DNA of 64,000 nt from Geobacter sp. AOG1. Lineage in GTDB: Bacteria > Desulfobacterota > Desulfuromonadia > Geobacterales > Geobacteraceae. Every line of letters starts with the position of its first letter. The stretch's first letter is position 1. The notes beneath the pieces were generated by a model. It was not told the origin of the DNA. It saw nothing but the letters and a program-made list of their open reading frames with translations, and did no database searches. Positions 5,942 through 13,711 of the stretch are shown in pieces. The translations under genes and the position numbers were made by a program. Location of the stretch: the NCBI RefSeq assembly GCF_019972315.1, contig NZ_BLIZ01000001.1, forward strand, positions 2,100,513 through 2,164,512. The letters run 5' to 3'.

Positions 5942-7909
5942 ATGCACAGGTACCTGTTCGGTTTCATCGATAACATGAAGCTCCGCTGGAAACTCCTGGT
6001 GGTGGTTATCCCACTGATCATCATTCCCATTTTTCTGGTGGGGGGGGTGATCGGCTATATCTCGACCCGCCAGGCCTACCTGGGTATCACCCATACTTCC
6101 AAAGACGACCTGGCCCACCTGGCCGACTTCACCATCGACCTTCTCAATTCCCACTACCAGCAATTCCAGGTCTACAAGCAGGACAAGCAGCGCAGCTTCA
6201 ACATGGAACTGGCTACCCTCACCAACCTGGCCTACAATGTCGTTGAGGCGCAGAACCGCCAGTACCGGAGCGGCCGCCTCGACCTGCGCACGGCAAAGAT
6301 GGAAGCCAACAAGGCCCTGAAGAAGGTGAACGTGGGGGAGACCGGTTACATCTACGCCATGACCAGCAAGGGGGACCTGACGGTCCATGTGGCACGGGAA
6401 GGGGAGAACGTCTATAACGAGAAGGACGAGAACGGCCGTTACTTCATCAGGGTAATGTGCGAAAACGCCCTGAAGTCCAAGCCGGGAGAGGTCCTCTACA
6501 TCATCTACCCCTGGCGCAACGCGGTCCTCGGTGACAAGAGGCCGCGCAACAAGGTAGTGGCCTACCGTTATTTCAAGGAGTGGGACTGGATCGTTGCGAC
6601 AGGCGGATATCTTGAGGAAACCTACGAGGATGAGGCATTCGAACGCCGCTCCTTCGAGGAGTTGAAGGATAAGATCAAAACCAAGAAGGTGGGACAGACA
6701 GGTTACATCTTCTGCATGGACAGCAAGGGGAACTTCACCATTCATCCGGACGGGGAAGGGAAGAACTTCTACACCGCCAAGGATTTCAACGGGCTACCCT
6801 TCATCAAGGAGATGTGCCAGAACAAGAACGGCTGGATTCGTTATCCCTGGAAGAACGTCGGCGACCGTACCCCCCGGATGAAGATCGTCCGCTACGAGTA
6901 CTTCAAGCCGTGGGACTGGATCGTGGCGGTCGGCTCCTACGAGGACGAATTCTACAAAGAGGCGAACGAGATCAAGGGGCGGATCACCGAGAGCATGATC
7001 GTTCTCACCATCTTTGTCTGCATCATCGCCGTCGGCCTGGTCTACCTCGCCTCTAAGATCATCACCGAGCCGATCGGCCACATGATGGAGGTAATCCGCA
7101 AGGTGAAGAAAGGGCGGCTCGACGAGCGGATGGAGGTGGATTCAACCGATGAACTGGGAGAGCTGGCCGCCGCCTTCAACCGGATGACCCAGATTATCAA
7201 GCGGAACAAGGATATGGAGTCGAACCTGGCTCAGCAGGGGAAAATGGCATCCCTCGGCGTCCTTTCCTCCGGCGTGGCCCACGAGATCAATAACCCCCTC
7301 GGCGTGATTCTCGGCTACGCCAGCTACCTGGAAGGGCGGCTGGACGAGAGCGACCCCAACTACCATTACATCCACGAGATCAAGCGAGAGAGCAAGCGGT
7401 GCAAGAAGATCGTCCAGGACCTCCTCTCCTATGCCCGTACCCCCAAGCCGACCCTGGAGGATACGGACATCAACGACCTCCTGGATCAGATTGTCGATTT
7501 CGCCGCCAACCACACGGACATGTACCACGTGACCGTGATAAAAGAGTTCGCCCCGAACCTCCCCCATATCCAGGCGGATGGCGATCAGATGCGGCAGGTG
7601 GCGATCAACCTGATTCTCAATGCCGGCTCCGCCATGGAGAAAGGGGGCAAATTGGTGGTGGGCACCTCCCTCGACAGCGATGGGTACATCGTCATTCGCT
7701 TTGCCGACAACGGCGCCGGTATCGCGCCGGAGAACCTGGAAAAGATCTTCGAGCCGTTCTTCACCACCAAGGTCAAGGGGACCGGCCTCGGCCTCGCCAT
7801 CACCAAGCAGATCGTCGAACAGCACCAAGGGAAGATCGTCATTGCCAGCGTGGTGGGGGAGGGGACGACGGTCACGGTGAGGTTGCCGGTGGAGCGGGAG
7901 GTGCTGTAA
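5942..7909 (+). CDS. Double-Cache sensor histidine kinase
   Basis: A 655-residue membrane kinase. The first membrane helix is at about 13-37, followed by an extracytoplasmic region with two similar Cache modules: GETGYIYAMTSKGDLTVH with FKEWDWIVATGGY, and GQTGYIFCMDSKGNFTIH with FKPWDWIVAVGSY. A second helix near 348-370 leads to HAMP, HisKA with His near 447 in SGVAHEINNP, and HATPase_c (DNGAGI, GTGLGLAI). The tandem Cache pair points to detection of a small ligand outside the cytoplasm. Two genes later comes an NtrC-family regulator in the same orientation, a plausible partner although no direct evidence links them. Confidence 0.93.
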   Translation: MHRYLFGFIDNMKLRWKLLVVVIPLIIIPIFLVGGVIGYISTRQAYLGITHTSKDDLAHLADFTIDLLNSHYQQFQVYKQDKQRSFNMELATLTNLAYNVVEAQNRQYRSGRLDLRTAKMEANKALKKVNVGETGYIYAMTSKGDLTVHVAREGENVYNEKDENGRYFIRVMCENALKSKPGEVLYIIYPWRNAVLGDKRPRNKVVAYRYFKEWDWIVATGGYLEETYEDEAFERRSFEELKDKIKTKKVGQTGYIFCMDSKGNFTIHPDGEGKNFYTAKDFNGLPFIKEMCQNKNGWIRYPWKNVGDRTPRMKIVRYEYFKPWDWIVAVGSYEDEFYKEANEIKGRITESMIVLTIFVCIIAVGLVYLASKIITEPIGHMMEVIRKVKKGRLDERMEVDSTDELGELAAAFNRMTQIIKRNKDMESNLAQQGKMASLGVLSSGVAHEINNPLGVILGYASYLEGRLDESDPNYHYIHEIKRESKRCKKIVQDLLSYARTPKPTLEDTDINDLLDQIVDFAANHTDMYHVTVIKEFAPNLPHIQADGDQMRQVAINLILNAGSAMEKGGKLVVGTSLDSDGYIVIRFADNGAGIAPENLEKIFEPFFTTKVKGTGLGLAITKQIVEQHQGKIVIASVVGEGTTVTVRLPVEREVL

Positions 7910-8111: not shown

Positions 8112-9215
8112 ATGACCCTATGGGAAAAAGCCAAAGCGGAACTGATCGACATCATCGAATGGACCGACGATTCAAGCGACACCATGGTCTGGAGGTTCCC
8201 ACGGTTCGAAAACGAGATCAAGCATGGCGCACAGCTGATCGTGCGGCAGTCACAGGCCGCCGTTTTCGTGAACCAGGGGGAAATTGCCGATGTGTTCCCA
8301 CCGGGGCAGCACCAGCTGACGACCAAAAACCTCCCGATCCTCACTACCCTCATGGGGTGGCAGTACGGGTTTCAGAGCCCCTTCAAGGCCGAAGTCTACT
8401 TCGTCAACACCCGGAACTTCACGAATCTCAAGTGGGGGACGAGCAATCCCGTCATGCTGCGCGACCCGGAGTTCGGGCCGGTGCGGCTGCGATCGTTCGG
8501 GACCTATGTGGTACGGGTGAGCGACCCGGCGAAGTTCATCAGGGAGATCGTCGGCACGGGGGGGCATTTCACCCTCAATGACGTTGCCGATCAGCTAAGA
8601 AACCTGGTGGTCACCCGGTTCTCGGATATGCTCGGTGAGAGCAAAATCCCCCTGCTTGACCTGTCCGCCAGGTACGATGAGCTTTCCTCCTCCCTTACCC
8701 AAAAAATAGCCCCCGAGTTTCTTGAGTACGGCCTGGAAGTAACAAAACTACTGGTGGAGAACATATCCCTCCCCCGGGAGGTCGAAGAGGCGCTGGACAA
8801 AAAAAGCAGCATGGGGATTGTGGGGAATCTGGACAACTATGTGAAGTTCCAGAGTGCGAATGCCATGGAGGCGGCGGCGAAAAATCCGGGTGGCGATGCC
8901 TCGGCCGGGGTGGGGATGGGTATGGGGTTCGCCATGGCCAACCAGTTGGGAAAGGCACTGACCACCCCCCAGGAGGCATCGCAGGGAGTGCCGCAGCCGC
9001 CACCCCTCCCCCATTCAGAGACATATTACGTGGGGAAAAACGGTAAACAGGCCGGCCCCTTCGATAAAACGGCGATCCTCGGTTACATAACCAAGGGGGC
9101 CATAACGAAGGAGACCCTGATGTGGAAAGAGGGGATGGCGGAATGGCAAACGGCTGCGCAGTTCGGCGAGTTTGCATCGCTGTTCCGGACGACACCGCCA
9201 CCGCTGCCGAAATGA
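8112..9215 (+). CDS. SPFH-domain protein with C-terminal GYF_2 domain
   Basis: A 367-residue protein of the 'virion core protein-like' SPFH family. The SPFH/Band-7 region covers about residues 30-240, a Gly-rich linker follows (GGDASAGVGMGMGFAMANQL), and the C-terminal 55 residues are a GYF_2 module (YYVGKNGKQAGPFD ... TLMWKEGMAEW). SPFH proteins form membrane-associated oligomers, but this one lacks a clear N-terminal membrane anchor. GYF_2 modules are thought to bind peptides. The start follows CAGGAG. It is probably cotranscribed with the zinc-ribbon gene downstream, which is frequently found beside this family. The biochemical role is unknown. Confidence 0.88.
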   Translation: MTLWEKAKAELIDIIEWTDDSSDTMVWRFPRFENEIKHGAQLIVRQSQAAVFVNQGEIADVFPPGQHQLTTKNLPILTTLMGWQYGFQSPFKAEVYFVNTRNFTNLKWGTSNPVMLRDPEFGPVRLRSFGTYVVRVSDPAKFIREIVGTGGHFTLNDVADQLRNLVVTRFSDMLGESKIPLLDLSARYDELSSSLTQKIAPEFLEYGLEVTKLLVENISLPREVEEALDKKSSMGIVGNLDNYVKFQSANAMEAAAKNPGGDASAGVGMGMGFAMANQLGKALTTPQEASQGVPQPPPLPHSETYYVGKNGKQAGPFDKTAILGYITKGAITKETLMWKEGMAEWQTAAQFGEFASLFRTTPPPLPK

Positions 9216-9302: not shown

Positions 9303-10010
9303 GTGGCAAACTGCTCCAACTGTTCGGCACCCCTGCCGCCAAATTCGATCCGCTGCGATTATTGCGGAAGCCGGAATGACATCGACCTCAAAGGGATAAA
9401 CTACTATACGACCCACGAGGTCGATTCCACCCGCGTATGTCCGCGGTGCGCCATCCCGCTGCAGACCATCGACCTGAAACTGGATGGCAGGTTTCTGATC
9501 GAACGGTGCGATGAGTGCCTGGGGCTTTTTTTCGATCCGGGGGAACTGGAAGCGCTCCTGGAGGCTACGGTTGCCAATGTGTTCGCCATTGACCGGAGCC
9601 GGCTGGACACCATCAACACCGCGCTGAGGCCCAATGACTACGGCGTTTCCTACGTCAAGTGCCCGGTCTGTGCCACTATCATGAACCGTATCAATTTCGG
9701 GACAAAGAGCGGCGTTATCGTCGATCGCTGCAAGGAGCACGGCGTCTGGCTCGACGGCGGCGAACTGCGGCATCTGTTCGAATGGATGAAGGCGGGGGGG
9801 AAACTGCTGGATCAGGAACGGCAGGAGCAGCGCAAAAAAAACGAGGCGGAGCAGGAACGGGAGCGGCGCGACAGGCTCGCCCAACCCATCCCCGGCGGGA
9901 ATTATCAGGGTGACGATTCCTCTTTCGACGACTACGGAAGCGTCCTGAGGATGGGAGATCCCGATCTCTTCCACCTCATCAGGAAAGCGATCGATTTTTT
10001 CACCAGATAA
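9303..10010 (+). CDS. TFIIB-type zinc-ribbon protein
   Basis: A 235-residue soluble protein with stacked zinc ribbons. The N-terminal pair is CSNC..CDYC (residues 3-22). The first zf-TFIIB unit is CPRC..CDEC, followed by LGLFFDPGELEALL. The second is CPVC, then a Cys-His zinc ligand pair (RCKEHGVWLDGGELRHLF). Residues 165-195 form a charged helical or coiled segment rich in Gln, Glu and Arg. The start is a GTG at 9303 with CGGAGGT just upstream. It is linked to the SPFH gene. Family membership is clear; no function is established. Confidence 0.85.
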   Translation: MANCSNCSAPLPPNSIRCDYCGSRNDIDLKGINYYTTHEVDSTRVCPRCAIPLQTIDLKLDGRFLIERCDECLGLFFDPGELEALLEATVANVFAIDRSRLDTINTALRPNDYGVSYVKCPVCATIMNRINFGTKSGVIVDRCKEHGVWLDGGELRHLFEWMKAGGKLLDQERQEQRKKNEAEQERERRDRLAQPIPGGNYQGDDSSFDDYGSVLRMGDPDLFHLIRKAIDFFTR

Positions 10011-10052: not shown

Positions 10053-11435
<1,383 letters not shown>

Positions 11436-11469
11436 TTCTGCACCGGCAAAGGCGTCGTCTCTTCCTTTA

Positions 11470-11485
11470 TTTGCACATCTGCAAA
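11470..11485. promoter_or_regulatory. Inverted repeat TTTGCA-CATC-TGCAAA (site 1)
   Basis: A perfect dyad with flanking A and T that extend it to seven-base arms. It lies 35 bp after the NtrC-family stop codon and 266 bp before the -12 element of the sigma-54 promoter. The form (inverted repeat, N4 spacer) is typical of enhancer-binding-protein sites. Confidence 0.65.
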
Positions 11486-11499
11486 TCATCGCCGTTCCC

Positions 11500-11515
11500 T
11501 TTGCAGTGCTGCAAA
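11500..11515. promoter_or_regulatory. Inverted repeat TTTGCA-GTGC-TGCAAA (site 2)
   Basis: It has the same arms as site 1, and the two site starts are exactly 30 bp apart. That is close to three helical turns and would place two activator dimers on the same face of the DNA. Confidence 0.65.
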
Positions 11516-11634
11516 TCCCACCCCGTCATGATGGTCGATATATCCTAACGGTTTGTAATTACTAACAAAACAAAGCCGATATCGGTTCCTGTCGTACTGT
11601 TGCGGTTTTCCACCGGCCGGAGGAGTGTGCCGAT

Positions 11635-11650
11635 TTTGCATCCCTGCAAA
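11635..11650. promoter_or_regulatory. Inverted repeat TTTGCA-TCCC-TGCAAA (site 3)
   Basis: The third perfect copy; flanking T and A extend the arms to seven bases. It lies about 113 bp upstream of the -12 element of the sigma-54 promoter, a usual distance for an enhancer. Confidence 0.65.
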
Positions 11651-11750
11651 AACGGTCGTGCTCTGTCCTGTTGTCGCTGCCATTCCGTGGGCCATGCAAC
11701 ATGCTTAAATCATTAGAGAATAAAATAAATTAGGGTGGTTTGTGAAACAT

Positions 11751-11765
11751 TGGTATGCAGGTTGC
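11751..11765 (+). promoter_or_regulatory. Sigma-54 promoter (-24/-12)
   Basis: TGGTAT-GCAGG-TTGC matches the TGGCAC-N5-TTGC consensus, with the essential GG and GC exactly 10 bases apart. The predicted start of transcription is near 11777, about 100 bp before the Cys-rich small gene. Three enhancer-like dyads lie upstream. Confidence 0.7.
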
Positions 11766-11802
11766 TCTTACCAAGACAGTTACTCCTTCGTAAATGGGGG
11801 CA

Positions 11803-11868
11803 GCCGGAACCGTTGGGAGGCGGTTCCGGCCAAACCCGGCGAACTTTCAAACGGGCTGGACGACAGCC
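11803..11868 (+). promoter_or_regulatory. Structured 5' leader of the small-protein operon
   Basis: A perfect 10-bp stem (GCCGGAACCG at 11803-11812 with CGGTTCCGGC at 11821-11830, loop TTGGGAGG) is followed by a short CCCG/CGGG stem (11835-11855). Partly alternative to that is GGCTG/CAGCC (11854-11868) with loop GACGA. Two loops expose GGA. This could be an mRNA control element such as a CsrA/RsmA target or an undescribed riboswitch; it does not match a riboswitch class I can name. Confidence 0.45.
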
Positions 11869-11879
11869 ATGAGGTAGGT

Positions 11880-12071
11880 ATGAAGGCAGCGATAGTGTGC
11901 CCCTTCTATGGCAAGAGCGATGATTACTGCGATGTTGGCTGTGGATACATATCACCTTACGATGTGAACATGATTATCAGGTACTGCAGTTGCCGCCACA
12001 AGGAATGCCTCAAATACCAGGAACTGGCCGACCGGTTCCCCTCCGAGGCTTTGGATCTGATCAAGTGTTAA
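11880..12071 (+). CDS. Cys-rich small protein, first gene of the sigma-54 operon
   Basis: A 63-residue soluble protein with nine cysteines (CPFYG, YCDVGCGYIS, YCSCRHKECLKY and a C-terminal Cys). The clustered C-x-C and C-x3-C spacings suggest metal or Fe-S binding, or redox sensing, but no named domain was recognised. The start at 11880 is chosen over the in-frame ATG at 11742, because that upstream ATG precedes the sigma-54 promoter and GAGGTAGGT sits directly before 11880. It heads a run of small genes ending in a multipass membrane protein. Confidence 0.7.
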   Translation: MKAAIVCPFYGKSDDYCDVGCGYISPYDVNMIIRYCSCRHKECLKYQELADRFPSEALDLIKC

Positions 12072-12083
12072 CAGGGAGGCTTT

Positions 12084-12206
12084 ATGCTGTACAACATTAC
12101 TCTGCATCTTAACGTGGTCCTCGTGACGTTCGCCTTGACGGCAGCAACGGCTTTCGTACTTATTTCCATCGCAAAGGAGAAGAGAGATGAGCGAAAAAGA
12201 GCTTGA
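12084..12206 (+). CDS. Predicted 40-residue single-pass membrane peptide
   Basis: ATG at 12084 follows an AGGGAGG ribosome site by a few bases. The peptide is almost one hydrophobic helix (about residues 7-30: LHLNVVLVTFALTAATAFVL) ending in a basic and acidic tail (KEKRDERKRA). Its last 20 bases overlap the start of the next gene, which suggests translational coupling. No homologue was recognised. The position inside a compact operon, the good ribosome site and the coupling support a real gene. Confidence 0.6.
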   Translation: MLYNITLHLNVVLVTFALTAATAFVLISIAKEKRDERKRA

Positions 12207-12438
12207 ACTGCTTGAACGGATAGAGGAGCTGGAACGGCACACTTGGCGTAACAGTGCCATCCTGCGTGCCGTGGCGATGGTGGCATTCACCGCAATGATC
12301 GGCATCATCGTGGCTTCCGGCGTGGTCGGCGGCGGGCGTGGCAGTCACTGGTCGGGCCCGGCCTGGAACACCATGTGGCTCTACGGCCTGTTTGCGGCGA
12401 ATGCGGTGTCTATGTTCTGGACCACCCACAAGAACTAA
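12187..12438 (+). CDS. Small membrane protein with N-terminal coiled coil
   Basis: An 83-residue protein. Residues 1-20 form a Glu/Leu-rich amphipathic helix (EKELELLERIEELERH). A transmembrane helix spans about 25-46, then a Gly-rich turn (GGGRGSHWSGP), and a second hydrophobic stretch spans about 60-78. The ribosome site GGAGAAGAGAG overlaps the preceding 40-codon gene. It probably interacts with its two membrane-protein neighbours. No family was recognised. Confidence 0.72.
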   Translation: MSEKELELLERIEELERHTWRNSAILRAVAMVAFTAMIGIIVASGVVGGGRGSHWSGPAWNTMWLYGLFAANAVSMFWTTHKN

Positions 12439-12440
12439 AC

Positions 12441-12474
12441 GGTAACGCCGCTTTTCCGCTCTGGCGGCGTTACC
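12441..12474 (+). terminator. Perfect 11-bp hairpin after the small-protein genes
   Basis: GGTAACGCCGC (12441-12451) pairs with GCGGCGTTACC (12464-12474) around a 12-base loop. No T-run follows, so it may attenuate or stabilise mRNA between the small genes and the 349-residue gene instead of terminating fully. Confidence 0.5.
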
Positions 12475-12477
12475 CTT

Positions 12478-12560
12478 CGGAATCCCTTGTGCGGCGTACT
12501 TCCAGTACGCCTCCGCACGATTTCTTGGGTGCCTTGCCAGAACGAAAAATCGACGTTCCT
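12478..12560. repeat. Intergenic element with GTAC core, family B copy
   Basis: The central dyad GGCGTACTTCCAGTACGCC lies at 12493-12511, followed by CTCCGCA and GCCTTGCC. The core and the GCCTTGC flank are shared with 43338-43457. Related GTAC cores are at 14402-14528, 17642-17765 and 60853-60930. Confidence 0.55.
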
Positions 12561-12592
12561 GCTGATGTCAGACAATAACGGAGGATACTCCT

Positions 12593-13642
12593 ATGCCAAT
12601 GAAAATTTCCAACGCGATCCTGTTGCTTGTGGTGGTTACGCTCTGTGCCACCTTCTCCATGCGGATATTCCAGGGGTTGGACGAGATGATGGGGGACCAG
12701 TACTGGGTTGTTGACACCACCCAGGGGGATCACGGCTGGTACGCCATGGGGATCCTTCCCCACGTCAAGAAGATGCCCAAGGATGTGGTCAAGGCTGCCA
12801 ATTTGGACCCGGCCAGCAAGGAGAAATACGTTATCTATTCCCAGGCGGGTGATTTTGCCGGCGACTCCGTGTACGGCATCTGCTTCGGCATTCCGCTCAT
12901 CATGTATCTGATCTGGTTCGCCTTTATTCTTGGCTTCCCTGACCGGGTCGATCCCTATCTGCTCCCCCGGCGCATCTTCACCATAGCGGTCATCATGACC
13001 TGCTCCATCATCGTCAACCTCTTTCTAATGCGGATTGCCGCCGACTTCGCCCGCGACCCGATGGCCCGCATCGCCAACGTGGCCGGCAATCATGCCTCGC
13101 TCCTCTTCCACAATGCCGGCATCTGGTTCGCTATCCTCTTCTCCGCCCTTGGGACCCATTCCCACTCGGCACAGGAGAGCGCTGCACCCGACAGCCGCAA
13201 ATGGCAGACCCAGGCCAACGAAAAGTTTTCCTGGATGTTCACCCTGCTGGGTGCCGTGACCGTTCTCGAACTGGTGCTCGTGAAGAGCAAGCTGGCCCTT
13301 CCCGACGCCGCCGTCGATTACTCGGTCTGGATCATCTGGGTCGTCATCTTCATGCGGATGTTCGGTTTCTCCCCCAAATACTGGGTGAAGCGGGGGCGCG
13401 GCATTGCCATCATGGTGGTCGGCACCCTTCTCACGTTGCCAATATTCTATCTCCTGGAGCGTGCCACCGGCACCCTCGGTGCGGGATTTGCCTCCCCGAT
13501 CCTGGCCAAGGCTCTTGGGCCCGAGAATCAGAATATCGGCCTGTCGCTCATGGTCTCCATCTACCTGGTCTTCTGGATGGAATTTGCCGCGGCGATACGG
13601 ATGAACGGTCCCACCAAAGCCTCGGCGATCGAGAAGCACTAA
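12593..13642 (+). CDS. Multipass membrane protein of unknown function
   Basis: A 349-residue integral membrane protein with about eight hydrophobic helices. Helix 1 is at 5-25. It is followed by an extracytoplasmic loop of about 70 residues with conserved-looking aromatic and charged residues (DQYWVVDTTQGDHGWYAMGILPHV). The remaining helices lie between about 100 and 335. His residues occur inside or near helices (GNHASLLFHNAG, GTHSHS), but no cytochrome, transporter or protease motif is convincing. The ribosome site GGAGGAT precedes 12593. It is the last and largest gene behind the sigma-54 promoter and is followed by a strong terminator. Confidence 0.8.
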   Translation: MPMKISNAILLLVVVTLCATFSMRIFQGLDEMMGDQYWVVDTTQGDHGWYAMGILPHVKKMPKDVVKAANLDPASKEKYVIYSQAGDFAGDSVYGICFGIPLIMYLIWFAFILGFPDRVDPYLLPRRIFTIAVIMTCSIIVNLFLMRIAADFARDPMARIANVAGNHASLLFHNAGIWFAILFSALGTHSHSAQESAAPDSRKWQTQANEKFSWMFTLLGAVTVLELVLVKSKLALPDAAVDYSVWIIWVVIFMRMFGFSPKYWVKRGRGIAIMVVGTLLTLPIFYLLERATGTLGAGFASPILAKALGPENQNIGLSLMVSIYLVFWMEFAAAIRMNGPTKASAIEKH

Positions 13643-13684
13643 GCAGTAGCAGGCAACCGAACGGACGGCACAGAGGCCGTCGGA

Positions 13685-13711
13685 AAGGGACCGGAAACGG
13701 TCCCTTTTTTT
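13685..13711 (+). terminator. Rho-independent terminator of the sigma-54 operon
   Basis: AAGGGACCG-gaaa-CGGTCCCTT followed by seven T residues, 43 bp after the 349-residue membrane protein gene. Confidence 0.9.

Follow-up and report, generated by a model that had tools for sequence, protein, structure and literature searches.

The window, meaning the whole 64-kb stretch of Geobacter sp. AOG1 DNA analysed here (from a genome of 3,677,207 bp in one contig), carries an operon encoding a Cys-rich protein of 63 amino acids (aa), a 40-aa membrane peptide, an 83-aa membrane protein and a 349-aa inner-membrane protein. All four open reading frames, as named in an earlier sequence-only reading of this DNA, are present, and the operon is closed by the strong terminator described there, the hairpin of which folds well and runs into T7 (Table 1). 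Upstream are found a double-Cache sensor histidine kinase gene and an NtrC-family activator gene, the latter ending at 11435, only 34 bp before the first of three TTTGCA-N4-TGCAAA dyads, which are followed by a sigma-54 promoter; the arrangement of the activator gene, the three perfect dyads and the exact -24/-12 spacing had been correctly recognised.

Table 1. Features of the operon and of its upstream region (window coordinates)
Feature	Coordinates	Strand	Remarks
Sensor histidine kinase	5942..7909	+	two tandem Cache modules, HAMP, HisKA, HATPase; predicted C2/C3-monocarboxylate sensor
SPFH/Band-7 + GYF_2 protein	8112..9215	+	Pfam; outside the conserved system
TFIIB-type zinc-ribbon protein	9303..10010	+	Pfam; outside the conserved system
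NtrC-family sigma-54 activator	10053..11435	+	receiver Asp55, AAA+ with GAFTGA, conserved Fis-type helix-turn-helix; Pfam and NCBIfam; dyad binding predicted
Enhancer dyad 1 (predicted)	11470..11485	no strand	TTTGCACATCTGCAAA; perfect TTTGCA-N4-TGCAAA
Enhancer dyad 2 (predicted)	11500..11515	no strand	TTTGCAGTGCTGCAAA; perfect; 30 bp from dyad 1
Enhancer dyad 3 (predicted)	11635..11650	no strand	TTTGCATCCCTGCAAA; perfect; centre 122 bp upstream of the -12 element
Sigma-54 promoter (-24/-12)	11751..11765	+	TGGTATGCAGGTTGC; predicted start ~11777
63-aa protein gene	11880..12071	+	five invariant Cys: C7, C17, C21, C36, C43
40-aa single-span membrane peptide gene	12084..12206	+	overlaps the next start codon; optional, weakly constrained
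83-aa two-span membrane protein gene	12187..12438	+	constant partner of the 349-aa protein
Dispersed hairpin repeat, ~110-120 bp	~12439..12592	no strand	between the 83-aa and 349-aa genes; two strong hairpins
349-aa eight-helix inner-membrane protein gene	12593..13642	+	long loop after helix 1
Intrinsic terminator	~13682..13711	+	GGGACCG-GAAA-CGGTCCC then T7; z -6.4

Putative enhancer dyads, sigma-54 promoters and the transporter gene

The dyad sequence is rare and concentrated at few promoters. No perfect TTTGCA-N4-TGCAAA site other than those at 11470, 11500 and 11635 occurs in the window, where the single site with two mismatches sits elsewhere than at the operon promoter. The genome-wide search proposed earlier yields five perfect sites (none for the reversed control pattern), three of them at the operon, one before a major facilitator superfamily (MFS) transporter gene and one before a GSU0071-family gene. 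At the operon promoter the dyad centres lie 287, 257 and 122 bp from the -12 element, and a spacing of 29-33 bp between paired dyads is common among relatives. The -24/-12 site, TGGTATGCAGGTTGC, is the only exact match in the window and contains TGG-N8-TTGC. When homologous operon promoters were scanned with TGGYRY-N5-NTGC, a sigma-54 site was found in 72 of the 75 readable ones, as against a rate of 0.7% in shuffled sequence, and site and dyad occur together in 70; in family f4 the sites are variants of the form TTGGCACG-N4-(A/G)TGC.

The fourth perfect dyad of the genome is located 42 kb upstream of the operon, outside the window, before a gene for an SfMCT-type L-lactate/monocarboxylate transporter of the MFS. 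It is flanked there by two dyads with one mismatch each and followed by TGGTATGCAAGTTGCT, a near-identical sigma-54 site, with the dyad centres 249, 220 and 117 bp from the -12 element. With 402 bits against a curated cut-off of 320, the transporter is assigned to the NCBIfam family of SfMCT L-lactate transporters (NF049980), and among solved structures it is closest to the L-lactate transporter PDB 6g9x (1e-48). In all 30 transporter loci examined, a sigma-54 site is found about 63 bp upstream of the start codon together with dyad-like sites. Moreover, in 29 of 80 operon loci the transporter gene overlaps the end of the 349-aa gene slightly or starts no more than 102 bp beyond it, so that the two targets form one operon there; in genome G073 it is the kinase and activator genes that stand beside the transporter gene, far from the 349-aa gene.

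Regarding the remaining dyads, the other six sites with one mismatch in the Geobacter sp. AOG1 genome are not close to any sigma-54 site and look like background, the reversed control pattern giving two. The GSU0071-family gene (NF045710; L173:4506-5222, approximately 1504505-1505221 in the genome) is preceded by two dyads 31 bp apart and by no sigma-54 site. Dyads at genes of this family are kept in several genera, where a sigma-54 site is absent; they are either bound by another protein or remnants, and this gene is a possible member of the regulon. In genome G004, a perfect dyad immediately precedes the kinase gene (L174:9421), which suggests autoregulation of the kinase in some species. 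A monocarboxylate/acetate symporter gene (SSS/DUF485) occurs near 13 other operon loci, all of them without an adjacent MFS gene; as a candidate regulon member it was rejected, its promoter having neither dyads nor a sigma-54 site.

The leader had been described as structured, and its hairpin is indeed real (z -2.6). Nevertheless, a conserved leader structure is not supported, since the distance from the promoter to the first start codon differs between species (about 27 to 141 bp) and neither the leader nor the operon matches an Rfam family above gathering scores. A riboswitch reading of the leader was rejected because of this widely varying distance.

An orphan membrane pair and its distribution

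None of the four products could be assigned to a recognised family, in agreement with the sequence-only reading. The 63-, 40- and 83-aa proteins have no Pfam, NCBIfam or PHROGs match above curated cut-offs, and the 349-aa protein has none in Pfam, NCBIfam, PHROGs or PDB sequences; for the latter, a profile search against PDB and tblastn against plasmids also gave no match. AlphaFold modelling of the 349-aa protein from 38 sequences returned eight long helices in a low-confidence model (predicted local distance difference test, pLDDT, 50; predicted template modelling score, pTM, 0.35), and the model of the 63-aa protein is likewise of low confidence (pLDDT 57). Conserved charged residues are found among the eight spans of the 349-aa protein, and the distribution of charges suggests that both ends are cytoplasmic and that the 65-residue loop after helix 1 is outside. 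Invariant or nearly invariant His residues are present in both the 349-aa protein (H167, H173 and H191) and the 83-aa protein (H18 and H81).

The four genes are not under equal constraint. Identity amounts to 75-98% for the 83-aa protein across the order and to 73-96% for the 349-aa protein among aligned homologues, and the median ratio of nonsynonymous to synonymous polymorphism (pN/pS) is 0.09 for the 83-aa, 0.17 for the 349-aa and 0.26 for the 63-aa gene, and 0.47 for the 40-aa gene outside its overlap, a ranking that places the strongest constraint on the 83/349-aa pair. In about 14 loci, mostly Geomonas-type, less than 90 bp precede the 83-aa gene and a 40-aa gene is either lacking or can no longer be recognised; one entire genus group is without it. 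The 83- and 349-aa genes are the constant core, with the 40-aa gene optional and the 63-aa gene tracking the activator rather than the 349-aa gene. From gene order and conservation, the 83- and 349-aa proteins probably assemble into one inner-membrane complex. The 154-bp gap that separates their genes here corresponds to a dispersed repeat that matches the genome at 38 places, this copy among them; the gap is only 6-15 bp in many relatives of other genera. The repeat may be REP/MITE-like (repetitive extragenic palindromic or miniature inverted-repeat transposable element) and may alter expression of the 349-aa gene in this organism.

Scanning one genome per species gave 80 loci with a 349-aa homologue (74-96% identity), all of them Geobacter-like or related deltaproteobacterial, and a sample of 395 genomes from the whole phylum contributed just one more, outlying family (f34); the protein family thus seems, on the genomes sampled, to be limited to Geobacterales and this outlier. 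The 63-, 83- and 349-aa genes follow one another in this order throughout the loci, so the neighbourhood comparison proposed earlier finds the genes in conserved order across Geobacterales, not scattered. The outlying family, which is outside the window's class, harbors a complete cassette of kinase, activator, 63-, 83- and 349-aa genes and transporter within about 6.6 kb (L182, genome G142; 71-80% identity), suggesting horizontal transfer. At other loci the kinase and activator genes are directly adjacent; only in the window's genus (L006, L007, L011) are the SPFH/Band-7-GYF_2 and zinc-ribbon genes found between them.

Co-occurrence was counted over 117 related genomes, of which 91 have the 349-aa gene. 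This gene and the activator gene are both present in 87 and both absent in 24, with 4 + 2 discordant genomes; G070 and G074 are incomplete assemblies, and the Fisher value for the association ignores phylogeny and is descriptive only. The 63-aa gene is present where the activator is, except for one genome each way. Members of genus g15 (G048, G054 and G057) keep the 349-aa gene with both the activator and the 63-aa gene absent, and in two loci of this lineage (L079 and L080) the dyads and the promoter are absent; these losses all fall within one genus and so amount to about one evolutionary event. In genome G008, with neither activator nor 349-aa gene, no dyad is found. Additional copies of the 63-aa gene can be found next to the activator (G049) or, with their own dyad and promoter, next to the transporter (G004). 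Solo copies at L175:8219-8786 and L178:5537-6104 have their own dyads and sigma-54 promoter, one being near the transporter and the other directly after the activator.

A proposed monocarboxylate regulon and its alternatives

The kinase, which matches dCache_2 (4e-61), sCache_2, HAMP, HisKA and HATPase_c in Pfam, gives an indication of what may be sensed, the solved sensors nearest to its Cache modules being 2qhk/4exo, 5g4y and 4k08. The sensor PscD from Pseudomonas syringae binds glycolate, acetate, propionate and pyruvate through residues that include Tyr90, His103 and Lys156, and 4K08 and 4EXO were crystallised with acetate and pyruvate, respectively (PMC5062169). Alignment and the Tyr-to-His spacing of 13 residues locate a corresponding triad in both Cache modules of the kinase (Y136/H149/K204 and Y255/H268/K314), each residue being kept in 25-27 of 29 aligned kinases. 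Considering this triad together with the type of transporter, a C2/C3 monocarboxylate, e.g., lactate, pyruvate or acetate, is the best guess for the ligand.

The best explanation of the whole, to which we assign a probability of roughly 0.6, is that the kinase and the activator sense a short monocarboxylate and induce both the MFS transporter and the 83/349-aa inner-membrane pair. Extracellular binding of a C2/C3 monocarboxylate would alter the activity of the kinase; the phosphorylated activator would then bind the paired dyads, about 115-290 bp upstream of the -12 element, and open the sigma-54 promoters at two places, the operon and the transporter gene. The complex probably formed by the 83- and 349-aa proteins would serve uptake or use of the carboxylate, and the 63-aa Cys-rich protein would modulate the circuit from the cytoplasm or act there as an adaptor, a role put forward with low confidence. 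This scheme predicts the binding of the activator to the dyads, the ligand, and the complex with its role, from genes, promoters, dyads, a shared regulon, co-occurrence and sensor-site residues that can be read directly. It is offered only tentatively that the pair constitutes a new complex, almost confined to Geobacterales, that takes up short monocarboxylates or energises their use, with the 63-aa protein as a feedback or redox modulator. Conserved gene order, promoter and dyads and the co-occurring regulator fit the earlier claim of a single sigma-54 system governed by the neighbouring NtrC-type protein, and comparative evidence gives good support to the double-Cache kinase as the probable switch. 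The notion of a four-gene regulated system stands as regards one system; it is to be modified in that the genes are not equal, the 83/349-aa pair being the core, in that the system reaches beyond 11436-13711 to the kinase within the window and to a gene 42 kb away, and in that the regulon also appears to include the SfMCT-type transporter, which points to function.

The control circuit itself is of a known kind; what is new is the orphan membrane pair, together with a regulon that can be defined. As in systems of the NtrBC/AtoSC type, a receiver-AAA+-helix-turn-helix activator with GAFTGA and a cognate kinase are combined with paired upstream dyads and a -24/-12 promoter, but the scores of the activator are well short of the NCBIfam equivalog cut-offs (445 vs 714 bits for AtoC), and the circuit has its own dyad sequence and its own sensor. 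The Cache fold family and the Tyr-His-Lys triad are shared with PscD, McpP and Adeh_3718 (PMC5062169), in which a single module is carried by a chemoreceptor, whereas two tandem modules are found here on a histidine kinase with a predicted ligand. The likeness of the transporter to SfMCT extends above the equivalog cut-off, although its gene is outside the window and its substrate in Geobacterales is predicted. In the related bacterium G. sulfurreducens, sigma-54 controls the carboxylate transporter gene dcuB; unlike the transporter promoter of the present regulon, that of the oxalate-formate antiporter GSU2490 was assigned to RpoD, and the 63/40/83/349-aa operon is not described in that RpoN regulon paper (PMC2725144). 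No description of the operon was found in the literature.

Several observations weigh against the monocarboxylate interpretation. No close copy of the transporter is found in 22 of the 91 genomes with the 349-aa gene, so that the 83/349-aa pair is not simply an accessory of the transporter. In genome G005 (L133), the transporter has dyads and a sigma-54 promoter with neither activator nor 349-aa gene detected, owing either to recent loss or to an assembly gap. Genome G021 is devoid of the activator and yet has dyads, with no sigma-54 site, before its GSU0071-family gene, so another protein may bind such dyads. Finally, the failed structure prediction (pLDDT 50) leaves the complex and its role to be deduced from gene order and conservation.

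Within the same regulon, the 83- and 349-aa proteins could themselves be a new permease family for the carboxylate, acting in parallel to the MFS transporter or replacing it. Such a role would agree with eight spans containing conserved charged residues, with the strong constraint on both genes (pN/pS 0.09-0.17), with retention of the 349-aa gene in the 22 genomes just mentioned and with the symporter found near 13 loci, none of them MFS-adjacent; we regard it as rather unlikely, however, as neither a transporter family nor a solved structure resembling them was detected (Pfam, NCBIfam, PDB) and the symporter genes, lacking dyads and a sigma-54 site of their own, may reflect plain synteny. In an order that depends on respiratory electron transfer, the pair might instead contribute to energy metabolism or protect against stress (handling of quinones, haem, metals or protons) during carboxylate use. 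The conserved His residues of both proteins and the co-regulated Cys-rich protein would suit such a role, but neither a CXXCH haem motif nor a match to a cofactor family is found and conserved redox genes are absent from the neighbourhood, which makes this possibility unlikely.

As for the regulator, the dyads and promoter could be real and served by some other protein of the NtrC family, with the nearby kinase and activator acting elsewhere. A first look at the genome gives 91 activator-like candidates, and the dyads of G021 would be accommodated in this way; still, it appears quite improbable given the near-perfect co-occurrence of activator and operon, the absence of the 63-aa gene, and at L079/L080 of dyads and promoter, in g15 members without the activator, and the fact that the activator moves with its targets in two arrangements. 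That the dyads bind a repressor or nucleoid protein, the sigma-54 promoter using other, unseen enhancers, seems very improbable: no description of TTTGCA-N4-TGCAAA as an enhancer motif was found in the literature and the GSU0071-family sites lack sigma-54, but the paired sites are about 30 bp apart, their position at both targets (roughly 115-290 bp before the -12 element) is the one expected of enhancers, and in g15 the dyads disappear along with the activator.

Geobacter-type metal reducers rely on acetate, lactate and pyruvate as main electron donors. A sensor-regulator-transporter unit together with a near-invariant orphan pair, present in most of the order and missing from some lineages, would offer a genetic handle on how these donors are detected and taken up. 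The proposed regulon thereby provides first testable function hypotheses for unannotated protein families, and its motif may be used across the order.

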